From assembly GCA_031763025.1 (NCBI GenBank), contig JASSKH010000002.1:19162168-19226167 (forward strand): a DNA stretch of 64,000 bases. The letters run 5' to 3'. The notes below the pieces were generated by a model. It saw nothing but the letters and a program-made list of their open reading frames with translations. It was not told where the DNA came from and did not search any database. Shown one piece after another: positions 14,081 to 23,430 of this stretch; within the stretch, counting starts at the first letter, position 1; each line of letters opens with the position of its first letter. The stretch comes from Macrocystis pyrifera. Its lineage: Eukaryota; Sar; Phaeophyceae; Laminariales; Laminariaceae. A program made the translations under genes and the position numbers.

Positions 14081-14306
14081 GTTGTATATCCTTCGAATTG
14101 TCATATTATTATTCTCTGCGACGTTGGGGGGAGGGATCCACTGGCGTGGTACGAGTCCCGCGCCACCGACCGTTGACTTTTGTTGCCTATTGTACTGACA
14201 GTACCCAGGAGTTCGCCCCCCCGGCCGACTGGCCGGGGCTCTAACAAACGCAGTCTCGGATGACCGAGACCCCCAATGATAGTAAGCCATTGACATACAG
14301 TACCCC
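14081..14306 (-). repeat. Split direct repeat B2
   Basis: About 225 bp in the same orientation as B1 (14,690-14,913). Both start gttgta(t/a)atccttcgaattg, and share ggatccactggcgtggtacg, ggccggggctctaacaaacg, and end near cattgacatac. If the PAT/Ngaro layout is right, 14,081 is the outer 3' end of the element. Confidence 0.8.
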
Positions 14307-14440
14307 ACTCTACTAGTGCGAGCCCCGAATCGAACCAGTTAATCACCAACAATAAATCATGTAAAATACGGTTTGGCCAGCACTATGTGGCCGCTCCGTT
14401 CCACCCACCTTCGAAAGAAAAAAGGGGCGGGTGGACAGGA

Positions 14441-14687
14441 GAAACCACAACAGTAGGCCTGACCTCTTGGCCTATCAATCGACCGCGAGCGGTGCCGTGC
14501 TCTACTCGTGCACCTATCACGAAAAGCAAGGAGGGGGCACGGGACGAGTATGGTCATTGTTCTCTTCTATGCCTCTGAACAAATTAATCCGTTTAGTTTC
14601 CGTGGGTAGAGCCCATGACTATAAATAATTATTTCCGGCGGTTGTGAACTAAACAGGCATCTCACGTGAACTTAGAGATGCTACGCT
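14441..14687 (-). repeat. Split direct repeat A2
   Basis: About 247 bp, a direct repeat of A1 at 23,182-23,430. Both start gaaaccacaacagtaggcct and share cacgggacgagtatggtc and agagcccatgactataaata, ending tagagat(g/a)ctacgct. Its inner edge abuts B1 with only two bases between. Confidence 0.8.
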
Positions 14688-14689
14688 AT

Positions 14690-14913
14690 GTTGTAAATCC
14701 TTCGAATTGTCATATTAATATTATTCGCTGGGCCGTCGGGGGGGGGATCCACTGGCGTGGTACGAGAGCCGCGACACCGGCCGCTGACTCTCGTTGCCTA
14801 TCGTACTACCAGTCCCCGGGAGTTCCCCCCCCCAGCCGACTGGCCGGGGCTCTAACAAACGCAGTCTCGGAAGACCGAGACCCCCAATGGTAGTAAACCA
14901 TTGACATACCCCA
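14690..14913 (-). repeat. Split direct repeat B1
   Basis: Direct repeat of B2, lying immediately downstream (minus strand) of the recombinase pseudogene and touching A2. The B1-A2 junction copies the joint that would form if the outer ends of the element were joined in a circle, as expected for YR-mediated integration. Confidence 0.75.
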
Positions 14914-14980
14914 ATTCCGCGGTCGCGTCGATACTACGGTGTTCGGCCCCGAACAGTACCGTGGCCTGGCTGCCTCTGCC

Positions 14981-16116
14981 CTATGTTTCCCGTCTCTCTA
15001 GTTTACGAGATACAGTACCCGCGTCCTCTGGGTTATTGCGGATGTACGTCTTGGAAAACTCTGAAGACTTCATCTATCGTCTGGCTGGATCGCCCTCTGC
15101 GGCACTTCACCCCGGCCGCCGGCGTAGTGGTTGCGCCAATACGCAATGAGTGGAGGCCGACTTCGCTGGATTCGTCTCCTGCTTCCGCAACCACTTCCCG
15201 AAGTGCCCCGAGAGCCTGCGTGTACCCCCCCCCGCTCTGACCTCCTTACCGTACCGATACGACGACAGGGGGGCGCTTTCTGGCAACGTCGGATATCCCG
15301 ACAACAACTCCACCATGAGAGCGACGGCACCGCTGCCTGCTCCTACCCCGGAACGCGCCCGAGGCGTCGTCGCGTGTGAGCACGATTACCGATCCTTGCT
15401 GAGCTTGGTCGCCTTTATGGCCTCGAAACAGGACCTCGATGCGGGTGGCCTGATGCCCCTGCAACGAGGTTAACCGCCGCTCCCCAGCGAATAACGATAC
15501 GTCACCCCTTTTCAAGCAATGCACGGGGTGTACAATTCCAGAAGAAGATGCGAACATTTCGTCTGACCTCGCCATGAAACAAGTAGCCCAATGCCAACGA
15601 CAGCCAAAGAAGTATGCCACCGGGGACACGGACAGGCCCTGTCCTCCCAACGTGTCCCACGAAATAGGGCGACGAATTCTTAATATGGGGTACCGGCGAC
15701 AATGTGCGATCGTGCCCCCCTTTCAATGCACGTTTAGCAAACCGCGACGACGTGGACTCCATTTGCAAGTTTACGCGGTGGAAGTCTAACCCGGCTGATA
15801 GTGTACTGGCAACAGTACCGGCTTGGTTGCCCTCCGACGCACACCACCCTACGAATTCAAGCAACGCCTGAATCTTATCCGTACAGGAGGCTGGCGTGTC
15901 CAAATACGCAGCCACCCTTATTAACCCCCGAAAAACGGTCCAAGACCGGAAACCTGACGTATAACCTCGGTTAGACGACGGCGCAACAGACTGGTGGATG
16001 AGCTGGCTGCCAGCACTCCTGAGCATAGCGCGACGCCCGCTGGCCCCAAGACCTGGGCTCCCAACGGATGCCGACCCCGGACGTACAATGTGCAACTCGC
16101 GCTGCTGCTTCCGCAC
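14981..16116 (-). pseudogene. Tyrosine recombinase, frameshifted
   Basis: This would have integrated the circular DNA form of the element. The N-terminal half reads openly from about 16,116: SVAPSSNRGYTSGFRSW and the following helices match the SAM-like core-binding domain of DIRS/Ngaro recombinases. The catalytic domain is spread over other frames. The first catalytic Arg lies in ARSDEMF (codon 15,567-15,569). Then come HCLKRGDVSLFAG and a V-x-FRGHKGDQAQQG strand motif. An HxxR box near 15,125-15,145 is damaged by a small deletion, leaving RIGATT in another frame. The C-terminal block has SKTYIRNNPEDAG with the Tyr nucleophile at 15,044-15,046, ending at TAG 14,981-14,983. At least three frameshifts are needed, so it is inactive. 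No ATG start is visible; the open frame begins upstream of a GTG at 16,116. Confidence 0.75.
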
Positions 16117-16169
16117 GCCGTACGATCGGCCTCGCCCCCACTGAGGGACGAGGCCCGTCTCCCTATTCG

Positions 16170-17906
16170 TCAGCCTTGGCCGCCCCCCCCCCCCCCACTC
16201 GACGCCCCGCTGCCGCTATCGCTGCCGCTGGTGCTGGTGCTGCTGCTACCGGAACCATTGCCGCTGCCGCTGCCACTGCCGCCGCTGCCGCCGCCGCTGC
16301 TCCCATACTTGCACCGCCACCCCCAGCCCCCGCCTGCCCTTGCCCTTAGCGGTCTTGGCCGGGGTTCTCCGGATACAGCGCCGCTGGCTGCGGCGCCGCT
16401 ATCGGCCGACCTTCCGCCGGTAGCCGTCTTGTGCTTATTGCCAACGAGACCGATGTAAGTGAACACGTAGGTGTCACCGAAGCGGCACCTGCCGGTCTTC
16501 CCCCCCCTGCCGGCATTCGTCACCCCTGGCCCCGGCCGCCAGTGTGGAGGTAAGGCGAGGTTGCTGAACTTCGGCGTTGACAAAACCGCCGAGGGCGACG
16601 TAGCCGGAGAGGCGGGGCCAGTGCGGCCCCGGAATGGCGGGGAAGGACTCCGCCAGCAGAGGGTAGGCCCAAGCGTGGACGCAGGAGTCGGAGACACCGC
16701 GCAGATCGAGCGTGAAGGTCTCCAGGTCGTTGGTGACCAGAGCCGCCAGCCTGGCCTAGTTCGCCGGCGATTGGCGACCGCAAAGTGCTCCGTAACTTGG
16801 TCGTTGAGGATCTTATCCCCCGCGCTGAGGGCTCGTCCGAGCGCCTCCAAGCGAGCACGCGCCACATGGAGGTCTGCGCCATCTTGTGAGAGCCCGCGGG
16901 ACGCGATCGTAACGATCGCGCACCCCAAAATGCTCAGGTGTGTGCCAGTGGATATTTGATGCTTGCCCCGACGCGCGATGTGAAGACCAGAAAGTCGAGG
17001 TCGTCCAACACTCCAACATGCCAAGGACGCCCGCCGAAATGTTGACCGTGGCTCCCACGTACCCCTGCACGGCCGTCCTCTGCATCGACGCCAGGCGGCC
17101 GCCGCAGATGATCGGCCGTAGCCGAGTCGTGGGTGGTCATAATTTTGTTGGCCGGTCGCCCAGAGGCGGTAAAACGGGTTGCCGACGATGCCGTTCCCGT
17201 GAATGTCCGGACCGGCCTCAGCCCCATCCGGCCTGTCGCGGGCCGCGTGGCCGAGTGCAACCGATGGCGCGGCGTTGGCTCCTGCCCCGCCCGAGACGTA
17301 GCCGAGCCGGCGACGTGCCCGCCCGCCTGTCCGGAGAAGGCGCCGGCGCCACCGGCGCCGCCCGCATAACTCCGGTAGCCGGGCCCCACTCCCTGGCCCA
17401 CTGCGAGCCCCCCCGCCTGGCCGAGTTGGGCGCAAGCGGTTCCAGTACCGCCCGAAACACTTCCGTAGTCCGCCCTCCCGGGACCACGGCCAGCGGACCT
17501 GCGTGTCCGAGAGGGGCGCCGGCGGCTCCGGCGCCGCCCGGAGTATTGCCGTGGCAGAACGCCCCCCCCGGACCTACGGTGAGCCCTGCCCTGCACGGGG
17601 TTGGGGGGCCAACGCAGACCCGCGCGGGCGCCCGTGGCCCCATGGACGGGTTGGCCAGCGATGCTGTGAGTCGGCAGGAGGACACCGGCGACCTGGCTCC
17701 CGAACGGCTGTCCGGCCGGCGGTCCGAGCAGGGCGGTGCTGCGGGAGTGGTCCAGCAGGGAAGCCCCGGCAGCAGGAGCTGCCGGGATGCGTTCTAACCC
17801 TGCTGGCGCCACCCCCGTCCCCGAGGGCGGGACGGCGGGAGGCTTCGATGATGTCGTTCATCAATCTCTGGAGGGCCGCCTGGAGCTGGGCGACTTCGTT
17901 CGCCAT
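16170..17906 (-). pseudogene. ORF1 (gag-like position), disrupted
   Basis: Starts at an ATG at 17,906 with MANEVAQLQAALQRLMNDII, a short heptad-rich helix like the coiled coil at the head of many retroelement gag proteins. The sequence is then extremely GC-rich and moves between minus-strand frames: 17,574-17,906, then 16,934-17,812, then the C-terminal part of 16,170-17,435. The third part includes LHVARARLEALGRALSAGDK and ends in a Ser/Gly tail of about 60 residues. No zinc knuckle or RT motif is seen. Open plus-strand frames of up to 285 codons also occur but are expected from the base composition. The gag role is inferred from position before YR. Confidence 0.4.
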
Positions 17907-18044
17907 CTTCTATTTTAAGGTTGCAAAGTCGGCCACCCACGCGAAAGCGTCCTCGTCGCCGTCGCTACCCGTCATTGTCCGGAGTCCCCCCTACGCCGTC
18001 GTTCTCGCCGGGCCTCGGCCAAATTTGGACGCGGCGAGACAACG

Positions 18045-18135
18045 CGGACGCGAAACAGAACACAGTGACGGCAACAACGGACGACGCGAACGCGGAACAG
18101 AACACAACGACGGCAACAACGGACGCGACGAGACG
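18045..18135 (+). repeat. Two-copy 45-bp tandem repeat
   Basis: Units contain acagaacaca, acggcaacaacggacg and cgcgaacgcg. It lies between ORF1 and the satellite. Confidence 0.7.
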
Positions 18136-18469
18136 GCGCGGAAGCGGAAGGGGGCAGCGCGACGGGAAATATAGAGGCGAAGGTGAGCACTTTCCATGCA
18201 CCAGCGTGGACGAGGGTAGGGCTTGGTTGTCCCCGTGCTGGTGTGCTCCGGCACACCATTAGTACGCGCCTGCGTTGTTGATAGCCGTGGTTGTTGTGCA
18301 CCGGCATCTTCCTATCAACAGCATCCGCTATCGGGTGCTCCGCACCGTTTATCTCGTGCACCGGCCGAGAGCTTCCCTTGAGGTGACACGCGCCTCTCTT
18401 TGCTAGGAATGTATCGCTAGTGGGAGGGGGTTGACGCATGCGCCGTCATGCATTCCGCTTAATCTCGAC

Positions 18470-18852
18470 TGCAAGCCGGTGCGCGGGTCACGAGACGTGG
18501 ACCGGCGCATACTCCGCCACTATCGACCGCCTTAAAGTGCACCAGCACGGCATCGTTATTGTACGTCACGACGCGTATGTTAAGTATCGTTAGTGAGGGG
18601 CAAGGCCAAGGGTCAACGCGTTGGCGCTGGCCCCAGGCCATGCACTGGCACATAGTCCCTCACCATCGACCGCCTTCTAGTGCGCCGGCACAGCGGTGTT
18701 GTTACAAACATCTTTCATTTTGTACCGCGACGTTCAAGATGTGTATTATTAGTGAGGGACGGGCCAAGGGCGGACGCGTTGGCGCCGGCCACGAGGCCTG
18801 CGCCGGCACATACTCCCTCGCCATCGACCGCCTTTTAGTGCATCGGCACAGC
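18470..18852 (+). repeat. Higher-order satellite, left part
   Basis: Monomers of the same satellite as 20,354-22,330. The landmark agtgc(g/a)(c/t)cggcacag stands at 18,679 and 18,838. Phase continues across the transposon: 18,838 to the next landmark at 20,501 is 157 bp once 1,506 bp (the element plus one target copy) is removed. More diverged related sequence may reach back to about 18,180. Confidence 0.75.
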
Positions 18853-20353
18853 TAGGCATGGGAATGGATTCGTTTTAGACGTAAAAAAATGTCCAGTCTA
18901 TTCGAGAATCCGTTCAAAAAAATCGGAAGAACAATTTTTGAAAATAGTGTGCCACCACCCTATTTACTTGGTTTTAGACTACATTCAAGTGTAGCACCGA
19001 GTATCTGATTACTCGGCACGGGAAACGAATTAGATGATAAAGTTCGGCAGACACCTCCCATCGATGGAGAATGATGGACTGACTCGTTGTGTTTTGATCT
19101 GCAAATTTTTTCTCCGTTAATTTTTTGTGGAAATACGCGGGCAAACTCGATTTTACAAGTTGTATTCGTATCTTTCTGTCCATTTGACTATACTCGAAAT
19201 CTAAATCAGTCAATCGATGCGGAACGACTTTGCGCACACAGCAATGCAATCCGCGCCTGAATCCGACAAGTAGCCGACATGAAATCCGTTGCACGAGTTG
19301 ACCCTCTTTTGAAGAGTCAATTGTTGATGGGAAATTCGACAAAATTTCCCGAGATAAAAACAAAGGATGTTCAGTCTTCATGGTATCGGGCAAACAGTGC
19401 CAGACATGAGCGCGGCCGCACGCCGAGCGATCACCATCACATCCGGTGTCATCGCAGCAGCGAAGACCATCTGTGATCGGGCCTTGATACAGCAGGAAGC
19501 GAGTTACCCCTAGCGTTCAGATGTGAACGCATTACTATTGTTGTCTCACGTTATGAAACGATCGAGTAAAAATACTTTACCCTACCACCCTGTCCGGAAA
19601 TATAGGAATGGTTTAATAATATATGTGAAAATACGCTATTCTTTACATTTCCGGACAGAGTGATAAGTACGTACGAGTACATACAGCAGCAGCATGCAGA
19701 TTTCAGGCGCGTGGTGAACGCAGCCTTGGTCGCAAGGGTCAAGTCTAGCTGCACGCACAGCAACAACTTGCCCGCGAGCTAGAAGTGGGGCGCGCTGCCA
19801 CGGAGGTGCAGGCAGCGCCGTCGAACTCCCGGTCTCGGCGAAGTTCAGTATAGCAACACGCAGCCGAGTGTCGATGCTCTGTGTAGGTACGAGGTATGTT
19901 CTTGTTTACACGTGTCCAACAGCAGTAAAACAGGACCGCATGCCGCGACTTGATATGTACAAGATGTGTTTCACAGGGGGGGGCAGCTTTCTCGTGCTGC
20001 CGGTCGCATATCCCAAGGCCTCCCCTGGAACGTGTGATTCGTTCACGCTCCCGCGTCCGTGTCTACGCTGCTACTCCACCCTCTGGGCTTGGTTGTGTGC
20101 TGTCCTGCAGCACGCGTGCAAAAAGCACGGCTAACTTTCTTTCCGGCTATAGCTCTCAACGCCACAACATCGATGCCGGCACTGCTTTTTATTTTGTTTT
20201 TGAGAGGCAGCATCATAGAACGGATTTTTTGGTGGCAAACGTTTTTTTTCCCTATCACGGATTGGTTAATTTCCTAAAGTTTTTTTCCCCCCGGTAACGA
20301 CCATGCGACATCCTTTGTTTTCACGTATTAAAACGAATCCATTCCCGCCCCTA
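18853..20353. mobile_element. 1,501-bp non-autonomous TIR element, copy 2
   Basis: Same element as 3,590-5,090, inverted. Target duplication acagc sits at 18,848-18,852 and 20,354-20,358, and neighbouring monomers show the empty site (ggcacagcgt). Left end taggcatgggaatgg; right end, read on the other strand, taggggcgggaatgg. The length is identical to copy 1. Internally both copies hold a ctgtccgga...tccggacag inverted repeat with about 52 bp between arms. It has no coding capacity. It was inserted after the satellite had formed. Confidence 0.85.
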
Positions 20354-22330
20354 ACAGCGTCGTTGAAACATATAGCAATACATTGTGTCTCGCAACGTGT
20401 AGATTTGTATCGTTAGTGAGAGACGGGCCGCAGGCCGACGCTTTGACGGCGGCCACGAGACCTGCACCGGCATGTATTCCCTCACCATCGAACGCCTTTT
20501 AGTGCGCCGGCACAGCGTTGTTGGTACGTACAACAGTACATTTTGTCTCACGACGTGTGTGATATACATTGCTGTACTCATCGCGACGCGTATGATAAGT
20601 ATCGTTAGTGCGGGGCAGGACCCAGGGTCGACGCATCGGCGCCGGCCTCAAGCCGCGCACTGGCACGTTGTCCCTCACCATCGACGGTTTCTAGTGCGCC
20701 GGAACAGCGGTGTTGTTACGTACATCGTTCGTTGTGTACCGCGACATTTATTGTAGGTATCGTTAGTGAGGGACGGGCCAAGGGCCGACGCGTTGGCGCC
20801 GAGCACGAGTCCTGCGCCGGCACATGGTCATTCGCCATCGATCACCTTTTAGTGTACCGGCACAGCGTCTTTGAAACATACAGCAGTAAATTGTGTCTCG
20901 CAACGTGTATGATGTGTATCGCTAGTGAGGGACGGGCCGCAGGCCGACACTTTGGCGCCGGCCTCGAGACCTGCACCGGTATGTATTCCCTCACTATCGA
21001 CGGCTTTTTAGTGCACCGGCACAGCGTTGTTGGTACGTACAGCAGTACATTGTGTCGCGCAACGTATATGATATATATCGCTATATCTTTTTCGCGACGC
21101 GTATGATAAGTATCGTTAGTGAGGGGCAGGGCCAAGGGTCGACACATCGGCGCCGGCCCTAAGCCGTGCACCGGCACATAGTCCCTCACCATCGACCGCC
21201 TTCTAGTGCGCCGGCACTGCCGTGTTGTTACATACATCGTTCGTTGTGTACCGCGACGTTTATGGTATGTATCGTTAGTGAGGGACGGGCTAAGGGCCGA
21301 CGAGTTGGCGGCGGCCAGGAGGCCTGCGCCGGCACATGGTCATTCGCCTTCGACCACCGTTTAGTTTTTAGTGCACTGGCACAGCGTTGTCGGAACATGC
21401 AGCAATGTATTGTGTCCCGTAACGTGTATGGTATTTTTTTCTAGTGAGAGACGGGCCGCAGGCCGACGCTTTGGCGCCGGCCACGAGACCTGCACCGGCA
21501 TGTATTCCCTCACCATCGACGGCCTTTTAGTGCACCGACACATCGTTGTTGGTACGTACAGCAGTACATTGTGTCGCGCAACGTGTGTGATATTCATATA
21601 TCGCTCTGTATTTATCGCGGCGCGTATGATAAGTATCGTTATCGAGGGGCAGGGCTAGGGGTCGACGCATCGGCGCCGGCCCTAAGCCGTCCACCGGCAC
21701 ATCGTCCCTATCCATCGACTACCTTCTGGTGCGCCGGCACAGCGGTGTTCTTACATACATCGTTCGTTGTGTACCTCGACGTTTGGTATATGTATCGTTA
21801 GTGAGGGACGGGCCAAGGGCCGACTCGTTGGCGCCGGCCACGAGTCCTGCGCCGGCACATTGTCCCTCGCCGTCGACCGCCTTTTAGTGCACCGGCACAG
21901 CGTTGTTGGAACATATGGCAATACACCGTGTCTCGCAACGAGTATGATGTGTATCGCTAGTGAAAGACGGGCCGCAGGCCGACGCTTTGGCGCCGGCCAC
22001 GAGACCTGCACCGGCAGATATTCCCTCGCCATCGACGGCCTTTTAGTGCACCGGCACAGCGTTGTTGGTACGTACAGCTGTGCGTTGTGTCTCGCAACGT
22101 GTATGATATATATCGCTATTCATAGTGATGGACGGGCTGAGGGCCGACGCGTTGGCGCCGACCACGAGACCTGCACCGGCCCAAAGTTCCTCACCTTCGA
22201 CCGCCTTTTAGTACACTGGCACAGCATTGTTGGTACATACAGCAGTACGTTGTGTCTCGCGACGTTTATGTATGATCTGTATCGTTAGTGACGGACATGG
22301 CCAAGGGCCGACGGCATTGGCAATATAGCA
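20354..22330 (+). repeat. Higher-order satellite, right part
   Basis: Landmark positions are 20,501, 20,693, 20,851, 21,010, 21,205, 21,370, 21,529, 21,728, 21,886, 22,045 and 22,210. The spacings are 192, 158, 159, 195, 165, 159, 199, 158, 159 and 165 bp. Every third monomer is longer because of an insert of about 36 bp containing cgcgacgcgtatgataagta. This gives a trimeric unit of 509-519 bp repeated three times. Monomers share gacgggcc, ggcgccggcc and ccctcaccatcgac. It lies inside the YR element's 5' side. Confidence 0.85.
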
Positions 22331-23181
22331 TTGTTCATATATATAAAATAATTAAAAAGGCTTCAGCTGTGAGATCGAGGTACATGTATACATCAAATAT
22401 AGGCCGGTACATGCGCGTACGCATCCCCATTCCTGGGTGCGGCATGTCTGGGAGGGAAAAAGAAGAAAGAAAGAAAACTGGTATGTGCTCGTACAGCACA
22501 TACGCCCTCCGTTCAGGTGTTCACCAGTATTCCCTACTATTGCCATATACTCTGTGTGCGGGTATATATCTCCAATCCTTGGCACGACCTTTAGCGGATA
22601 TATCTAGTACAGAATTTGTGTCCTCTGCTCCGGTGGTACGCTCGTCTCGACCAAATATCTCTACTGATGTACGAGTCCTGTCTATGCTGTTACGAGTGTC
22701 ATCAGTTGTTCCCTCCTGTGAACGGCCGATTCGCGAATTCGCGTGTTCAGGAAGGACAGCGATTAAACGCGCCCCCAAGTTTACGCGAGTGTTTCCTTCT
22801 ACCCGTACTACCCTTCATGCGTGTACAAGCTACTTCCCCATCCACTGGGGCGAACCAGCCGAGAAAAAAAAAACTCGTGGGAAAAATCATGGCTGCCGGC
22901 CCCACGCGAGCGAGGTAACGATGCTTGCAGGCGTATGAGGCAGGCGTGTGAGTCATTGTGCATCAGAGTAGATAGCCCCACGCCCAATTGTAATCGAGTT
23001 CAAGCTCTAAAAACCCCGAACATTCCCGGATCTTCGCTTCGTTCGCACGCCTCTCGCACACGTACCGGGAAAGCGTGCGTCGCCTCTGCTCGTTCTCCTC
23101 CCTTGCGTGCTGCAGCCCTCCAACCGCCGCTCTTGTGCTGCCGCTGTCGTGAAGAGGAACCTTAACAGAGCAACCACAACA
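22331..23181 (-). other. Unassigned sequence between satellite and repeat A1
   Basis: In the YR-element model this is leader sequence. A minus-strand frame of 85 codons (22,521-22,778) has a protein-like composition (ANSRIGRSQEGTTDDTRNS) but no recognised motif. It could be a remnant of an upstream gag part. Confidence 0.25.
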
Positions 23182-23430
23182 GAAACCACAACAGTAGGCC
23201 TAGCCTCTAGGCCTATCAATCGGCAGCGAGCAGTTCCGTGCTCTACTCGTGCATCTATCGCGAGAAGCTAGGAGGGGGCACGGGACGAGTATGGTCGTTC
23301 TTCTTTTCTCTCTGCTTTTGAACAGATTACGACATTTAGTTTCCGTCGGTAGAGCCCATGACTATAAATAATTAATCCCGTCGGTTGTGAACAAAACAGG
23401 CATCTCATTTGAAGTTAGAGATACTACGCT
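23182..23430 (-). repeat. Split direct repeat A1
   Basis: Direct repeat of A2 (14,441-14,687) with the same start and end words. In the PAT/Ngaro layout 23,430 is the outer 5' end of the element. Sequence beyond both borders (ttctctttta here, atgttg at A2) no longer matches. Confidence 0.75.

Follow-up and report, generated by a model that had tools for sequence, protein, structure and literature searches.

We analyzed a 64,000-nucleotide stretch of the genome of the giant kelp Macrocystis pyrifera (assembly GCA_031763025.1, contig JASSKH010000002.1, positions 19,162,168 to 19,226,167; hereafter the window). On its minus strand, between positions 14,081 and 23,430, it carries a 9.35-kb tyrosine recombinase (YR) element bounded by direct repeats in the arrangement A1...B1-A2-B2 and devoid of reverse transcriptase (RT). 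We best explain this element as an old and decayed copy from a non-autonomous family whose ancestors were Ngaro-type YR retrotransposons of giant kelp. Judging from the DNA, we consider it likely that the RT-ribonuclease H (RNase H) region of the parents lies in an intron and that YR is made from the spliced RNA. On at least two occasions, spliced RNA would have been copied by RT and then inserted by YR, and the first of the resulting families would have been amplified further without RT of its own.

The missing segment

In this part of the element, the window is collinear with the RT-bearing copy L070 (fetched loci are designated by L numbers), except for 2.07 kb containing RT-RNase H that are absent from the window. 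The segment measures exactly 2075 bp in all five RT-bearing copies compared (L070-L074), where its limits read CAG|GTGTGA...GACAG|GTCTTGG. It begins with GT and ends with AG, and its length leaves a remainder of 2 on division by 3. In the RT-bearing copies, the YR and RT frames overlap in different phases, so that without the segment the leader of the RT frame runs in frame into YR. In the window, the scar is a CAG|GT at positions 16,052-16,053 of the minus strand, where two exons would meet after splicing. When the 772-amino acid RT frame of L072 was compared with the window element, only its two edges (residues 1-48 and 729-764) found a match and the RT core had none anywhere. This agrees with an earlier note on the window, which had seen no RT across the 9.35 kb, about 1.5 kb of which looks like a later insertion (see below).

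The earlier note had hesitated between a non-autonomous derivative and an RT-less YR lineage, and had suggested looking for RT in related full copies. Ngaro-type relatives do carry RT-RNase H and YR and differ by this one exact segment, which bears out the first alternative. The second does not hold as an origin, since RT was lost at least twice from RT-bearing Ngaro-type parents; the old RT-less clade was nevertheless amplified as RT-less. The GT-AG character of the missing segment had not been foreseen.

A junction probe spans the site without RT in all 30 YR loci L009-L038, which were picked by similarity to an RT-less query and include the window copy as L009. In the genome searched (537,376,219 bases, 223 contigs), the RT-less junction pattern occurs at 182 places (reversed-pattern control, 2) and the RT-bearing donor pattern at 104 (control, 0), up to two mismatches being allowed. 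Sequence of the RT-bearing type precedes the junction at 13 of the 95 exact junction places. Among 150 YR places (150 matches listed of 1441 candidates), at least 41 are preceded by an RT match within 2.6 kb, at least 46 have the junction, none has both and 63 have neither, the junction list used for this tally being 47 of the 95 exact places, picked by hand.

Repeated loss of the reverse transcriptase

We built a tree of the YR side from 56 sequences and three outgroups, L054 being excluded as too short, and rooted it on L078-L080. Nine RT-less copies (L021, L022, L026 and L081-L086) fall inside the RT-bearing clade, their own node having an ultrafast bootstrap of 94, and the remaining 42 RT-less copies group in a clade of their own (86); re-rooting may have shifted the labels on the root path by one node. 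Three of the nine are nested likewise in a midpoint-rooted tree of 50 sequences. In a tree of exon 1, for which 43 of 60 loci were usable (12 were too short and 5 had no match), eight of the nine fall with RT-bearing copies, with modest supports.

On the B-repeat side of the junction, three of the nested copies (L021, L022 and L026) share 99.3-99.5% identity with the RT-bearing L072, and over the approximately 300 bp before the junction 96.1-99.3%. At 5 and 7 bp ahead of the junction and at 13 bp beyond it, their bases are of the RT-bearing type. A borrowed deletion would thus need a very short conversion tract, because RT-bearing bases hug the junction in these copies. In L081, L082 and L085, the leader-YR frame runs without a stop as far as the fetched piece extends, and nearly all of ORF1 (open reading frame 1) is lost in L086. 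On these comparisons, the same breakpoint has arisen at least twice.

Four other RT-less copies (L019, L020, L024 and L048) are truncated at their 5' side, A being fused, up to its GGTTTC end, to the interior of ORF1; the join starts with A residues in L019, L024 and L048. This suggests that A could have been added back from A2 to an incomplete complementary DNA. These copies were rejected as further spliced forms, the joins inspected not being GT-AG.

Splice-like sites in other lineages

The RTs of L078, L079 and L080 are 54-57% identical to that of L072. The donor CAG|GTG nevertheless stands in the same alignment column in all four rows, these three included. A phase-correct AG acceptor is found at the homologous place in L078 and L079, where the joined frame reads into YR; L080 also has an AG acceptor there, the joined frame being unreadable at this point. 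L079 keeps GT-AG in the absence of the 5-bp homology. The RT of a fifth lineage (L087-L090) is about 50% identical to that of L078. Open frames of 839-900 amino acids occur in several copies of an additional RT family of the Ngaro type, which shares about 51% identity with L078 (C127:3392679, C201:2240124, C210:4170158 and others).

In the RT-bearing copies, an in-frame stop of ORF1 directly precedes the leader: TAG in L071-L074 and L079, TGA in L078. We examined 36 RT-less loci, of which 10 lacked the junction string sought and two had no stop in range. TAG stands exactly 38 codons before the junction in 19 of the 24 with a stop; the window copy is outside these 19, its frame being shifted there. 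The TAG at 16,163-16,165 (minus strand) in the window is where the ORF1 of relatives ends, the frame from there to YR being broken. Seven nucleotides past it, a 12-bp RNA hairpin is predicted at 16,128-16,155 on the same strand (z -3.75), and hairpins are found at this distance from the stop in L072 (12 bp, z -2.8), L078 (8 bp, -1.0) and L079 (9 bp, -1.1). Readthrough of a stop between gag and pol occurs in some retroelements, and Tca2 is said to have a UGA with a potential pseudoknot. By analogy, the kelp stop and hairpin look like a gag-pol readthrough signal.

Proposed mechanism and alternative explanations

We propose that RT-RNase H lies within a GT-AG intron of the RT-bearing parents. 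The unspliced RNA would be translated into Gag and, by readthrough of the stop, into Gag-RT-RNase H, and the spliced RNA, in which the leader is joined to YR, would give Gag-(stop)-YR. Some spliced RNAs would have been reverse transcribed with RT provided in trans and inserted by YR. The resulting RT-less families would have kept the A and B repeats and then been amplified in trans. The anatomy, the exact segment, its phase, the two origins and the recurrence of the sites are facts of the DNA, from which we infer the splicing of the RNA, the readthrough of the stop and the supply of RT in trans. One could extend the scheme to brown-algal Ngaro elements in general, the whole of RT-RNase H being a retained intron. 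Splicing would then choose between Gag to RT (unspliced) and Gag to YR (spliced) with the same stop and hairpin, and the spliced RNA would be a substrate of replication. We put the chances of this extension at about even.

Several observations weigh against the splicing proposal. The pyrimidine tract of the acceptor, read by eye from the sequence, is poor, and YR could be expressed by a -1 frameshift. The acceptor of L079 is ambiguous (GGCAG or ACAG), and the fifth lineage, with several AG|GT sites, is compatible but not decisive. Searches for copies with the spliced type of junction gave 0 places for L078 and 0 for L079, few members of either lineage having been encountered and the L079 pattern being searched with no mismatch. 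The z-scores of the hairpin are weak in these two lineages. Finally, the exon-1 tree puts L081 with the RT-bearing L071 and L072, apart from the other RT-less copies, so that a single clade of young RT-less copies is not firmly supported on this side.

A further point is that CAGGT is common to both ends of the segment, a perfect 5-bp repeat that also fits removal of RT by a microhomology-mediated DNA deletion, or by a jump of RT between the two CAGGT copies on its template, the GT-AG ends being accidental. Joins that are not GT-AG do exist elsewhere in these elements, for example that of A1 to the interior of ORF1 via A residues in L019, L024 and L048. We nevertheless hold this explanation to be unlikely. 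Among the 254 direct-repeat pairs of L072 (repeats of at least 5 bp, left ends at 185-700 and right ends at 2150-2650), 7 are compatible with GT-AG and 64 keep the frame, and just 2 do both. Moreover, the identical base pair was used in at least two losses, the donor and its phase are found again at an RT identity of about 55%, and L079 has GT-AG without the 5-bp homology.

One could also imagine an autonomous RT-less YR element, a Crypton-like DNA mover in which the split direct repeats would be incidental. The lack of RT in the window and in all 30 similar YR loci would be expected of it, and the leader-YR frame is open in L081, L082 and L085, near the RT-bearing group. However, RT-bearing relatives with the same 3' end exist and the loss of RT is derived and repeated, which makes this possibility very improbable. 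Least probable of all is that the RT-less state results from decay of individual RT-bearing copies after insertion: the window copy is certainly old (repeats 86-90% identical, broken frames), but decay of single copies is refuted by a junction common to many copies, its pattern recurring at 182 places, also in copies like L069 whose repeats are 99% identical.

RT-bearing relatives

The first RT-bearing relative fetched, L070, contains ORF1, an RT-RNase H frame and YR. The frames are open in L071-L074, with an RT of 772 and a YR of 390-391 amino acids, and one group among the YR matches listed keeps an open frame of 390 amino acids. A protein search with RT listed 79 matches, 17 of which (query included) are free of stops and at least 97% identical over 612-613 amino acids. 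In the RT-bearing parents, repeats of the 159-bp type are followed by Gag ORF1, an in-frame stop, a short leader, RT-RNase H, YR and, lastly, B1-A2-B2. Their split-repeat layout was judged from the 3' ends, A1 being outside the fetched pieces. Of the eight 3' ends fetched (L070-L077), four are complete B1-A2-B2 (L072-L075), one is B1-A2 with a remnant, and three have only one full or partial B. The latter, L070, L076 and L077, perhaps arose by recombination between B1 and B2.

In the RT alignment, the residues that we take to be the YVDD motif and the acidic residues of RNase H are invariant in all three lineages. In the YR alignment, R179, H318-x-x-R321 and Y354, presumably the YR motif, are invariant in all three rows, two of which come from one family. 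Pfam RVT_1 matched the relatives with E values of 0.038 and 0.0019, both too weak to pass the Pfam cut-off. Phage_integrase matched L072 with an E value of 0.001, also too weak to pass, and gave no match for L078. The CCCH finger in the ORF1 of L070 passes the cut-off. A PDB sequence search with the YR of L072 returned no match at E values up to 1. No Pfam match to a methyltransferase was obtained in the relatives at E values up to 0.5, and their ORF2 stops about 70 amino acids past the last acidic residue of RNase H. The RT-bearing relatives are thus Ngaro-type, no methyltransferase following RNase H.

Structure and borders of the element in the window

Self-comparison of the window and comparison with the sister copy L069 confirmed the direct repeats A and B at the places, and in the order and orientation, reported earlier. 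The A repeats match over 134 nt at 88% and 122 nt at 86%, at a spacing of 8,741-8,743 bp, and the B repeats over 172 nt at 90%, at a spacing of 611 bp. No inverted pair of 40 nt or more was found in this self-comparison. The features that follow are on the minus strand, apart from the tandem units, to which no strand is assigned. The 5' terminal direct repeat A1 (23,182-23,430), whose terminus is common to other copies, precedes a 5' region with the main block of approximately 159-bp tandem units (20,354-22,321), also present in L069 and L070. More of these units (18,481-18,856) are separated from the main block by an insertion at 18,857-20,344. Then come the Gag-like ORF1 region with broken frames (16,166-17,909), the same ORF of the RT-bearing L070 having a CCCH zinc finger, and, beyond the stop, hairpin and scar, the YR region, split over three frames (15,070-16,052). 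B1 (14,690-14,913) and A2 (14,441-14,687) were delimited by repeat comparison and with L069, and the 3' terminal direct repeat B2 (14,081-14,306) by repeat comparison and copy termini. A2 had been described as touching B1; the two are indeed adjacent, but 2 bp apart in the window copy, with an AAA-like core in between. The B1/A2 joint of L069 reads CAACAAAGCGTAG.

L069 has the identical A1...B1-A2-B2 layout over 9.28 kb, and its coding side is 84% identical to that of the window. Its repeats are 99.2% (A1/A2, over 253 nt) and 99.6% (B1/B2, over 230 nt) identical. The layout in the window is beyond chance, since L069 shares it and the window flanks show no match to L069. In lists where a few places were entered twice, the 5' ends of copies are GCGTAG or GCGTGG in 14 of 14, and AAA follows the 3' end in 33 of 38, most of these ends being ACAAC. 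No target duplication longer than the AAA-like core was seen in these terminus rows. Given these recurring termini, positions 14,081 and 23,430 are the outer borders, within about 3 bp; both are common to L069 and delimit one insertion, as had been supposed. The terminus pattern would fit insertion of a circle by YR at a core of about 3 bp.

The A and B family searches scored 40 candidates each, of 914 and 896, respectively. The possibility had been raised that A is an independent repeat without B. Eight of 30 A loci have no B, ORF1 or YR match within 1.5 kb, as expected of A1; other parts of the element lie at the correct distance in three of them (L049, L055 and L059), and five were not traced. 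In the loci inspected, the independent-repeat possibility is not borne out. The 3' flank is shared within two pairs of loci, L023/L027 (C210) and L044/L063 (C211, C192), an indication of segmental duplication or of insertion into some other repeat. The approximately 159-bp units lie between A1 and ORF1 in RT-less copies, and similar ones upstream of ORF1 in the RT-bearing L070; the region is possibly a promoter or a spacer.

The window copy is old, as its A1 and A2 are 86-88% and its B1 and B2 90% identical, and its ORF1 and YR frames are broken. Eight ORFs of the window gave a single chance-level Pfam match, and the YR model matched none of the YR pieces. The YR motifs (R, HxxR and Y) are present in intact relatives, on which the call of the YR domain rests, YR of the window being broken over three frames without a Pfam YR match. 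An argument drawn from repeats nearly identical within a copy and 90-94% identical between copies was discarded: the between-copy values had been measured against the old window copy and reflect mostly its age. The approximately 1.5 kb at 18,857-20,344 have no counterpart in L069, and the fetched loci match them over just 49 nt. Their edges are inverted copies of GGGAATGGATTCGTTT, with apparently a short ACAGC duplication. Being absent from L069 and having such edges, this stretch is probably a DNA transposon nested in the element at a later time.

Relation to known elements

Ngaro elements are laid out as A1-[ORFs]-B1A2B2 in the accessible parts of their descriptions (PMC8547959, PMC4157794), and 15 Ngaro families are given for the brown alga Ectocarpus in the part available of another (PMC12477816). 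This layout is present in the window and L069, and B1-A2-B2 in the RT-bearing L072-L075. The kelp elements further resemble Ngaro by the order gag, RT-RNase H, YR, and by the R, HxxR and Y motifs of YR, found in the relatives and broken in the window copy. The PAT/Ngaro assignment made earlier was therefore right as to the layout, and Ngaro, not PAT, fits RT-bearing parents without methyltransferase. By contrast, the window family lacks RT-RNase H, cut at GT-AG boundaries, and for this reason we file the window copy as a non-autonomous derivative, not as Ngaro itself. Membership of PAT (DIRS group) was rejected on the lack of a methyltransferase after RNase H in the relatives, and a DIRS1-like element on the lack of inverted pairs of 40 nt or more in the window. 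Cryptons, YR elements that have neither RT nor split repeats, were also rejected, as split repeats are present here and RT-bearing relatives exist. TOC1 of Chlamydomonas, an RT-less split-repeat element, and SIRE of VIPER are, like the kelp family, non-autonomous derivatives of YR elements. In the accessible text, SIRE retains nothing but its two ends and a short stretch of the interior (PMC6681497), whereas in the kelp family RT is the only part lost, the regions of ORF1 and YR being retained.

The closest parallels are human L1 SpIREs and the splicing of rt in CRR, as far as the accessible parts of the sources go. L1 SpIREs are retrotransposed from spliced RNA, with splice donor and acceptor within the element; they lose the 5' untranslated region (5'UTR) or 5'UTR/ORF1 and are described as evolutionary dead ends in general (PMC5860796, in part). 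The kelp family likewise would consist of copies from spliced RNA with splice sites inside, splicing being read from the DNA, where the missing segment runs GT...AG at recurring splice-like sites. It differs by losing RT, by having reached many copies and by its YR instead of LINE integration. CRR splices out rt, copia removes 2.9 kb of pol and BARE splices 104 nt, according to the available part of PMC3735527. The likeness lies in the use of splicing to make a subgenomic RNA, lacking rt in the case of CRR and pol sequence in that of copia; CRR, copia and BARE are long terminal repeat elements, unlike the kelp family. Splice-dependent YR goes unmentioned in the accessible parts of the Ngaro descriptions cited above (PMC8547959, PMC4157794, PMC12477816), and we found no description of splice-derived RT-less YR elements in the literature searched; an earlier mention of an intron in Ngaro or DIRS is possible.

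The YR frame of these elements may be shifted or overlap others, and how YR is made is unstated in the accessible parts of PMC3783388 and PMC3266345. The kelp family would offer a concrete answer, recorded in its DNA, namely splicing, and a junction of a few bases makes it directly checkable in any kelp RNA data set. A further suggestion is that retroelement RNA, once spliced, may found spreading families, in contrast with the dead-end view of L1 SpIREs. Under the scheme extended to brown-algal Ngaro elements, the genome would be repeatedly seeded with RT-less Gag-YR copies that share the work with RT-bearing ones.

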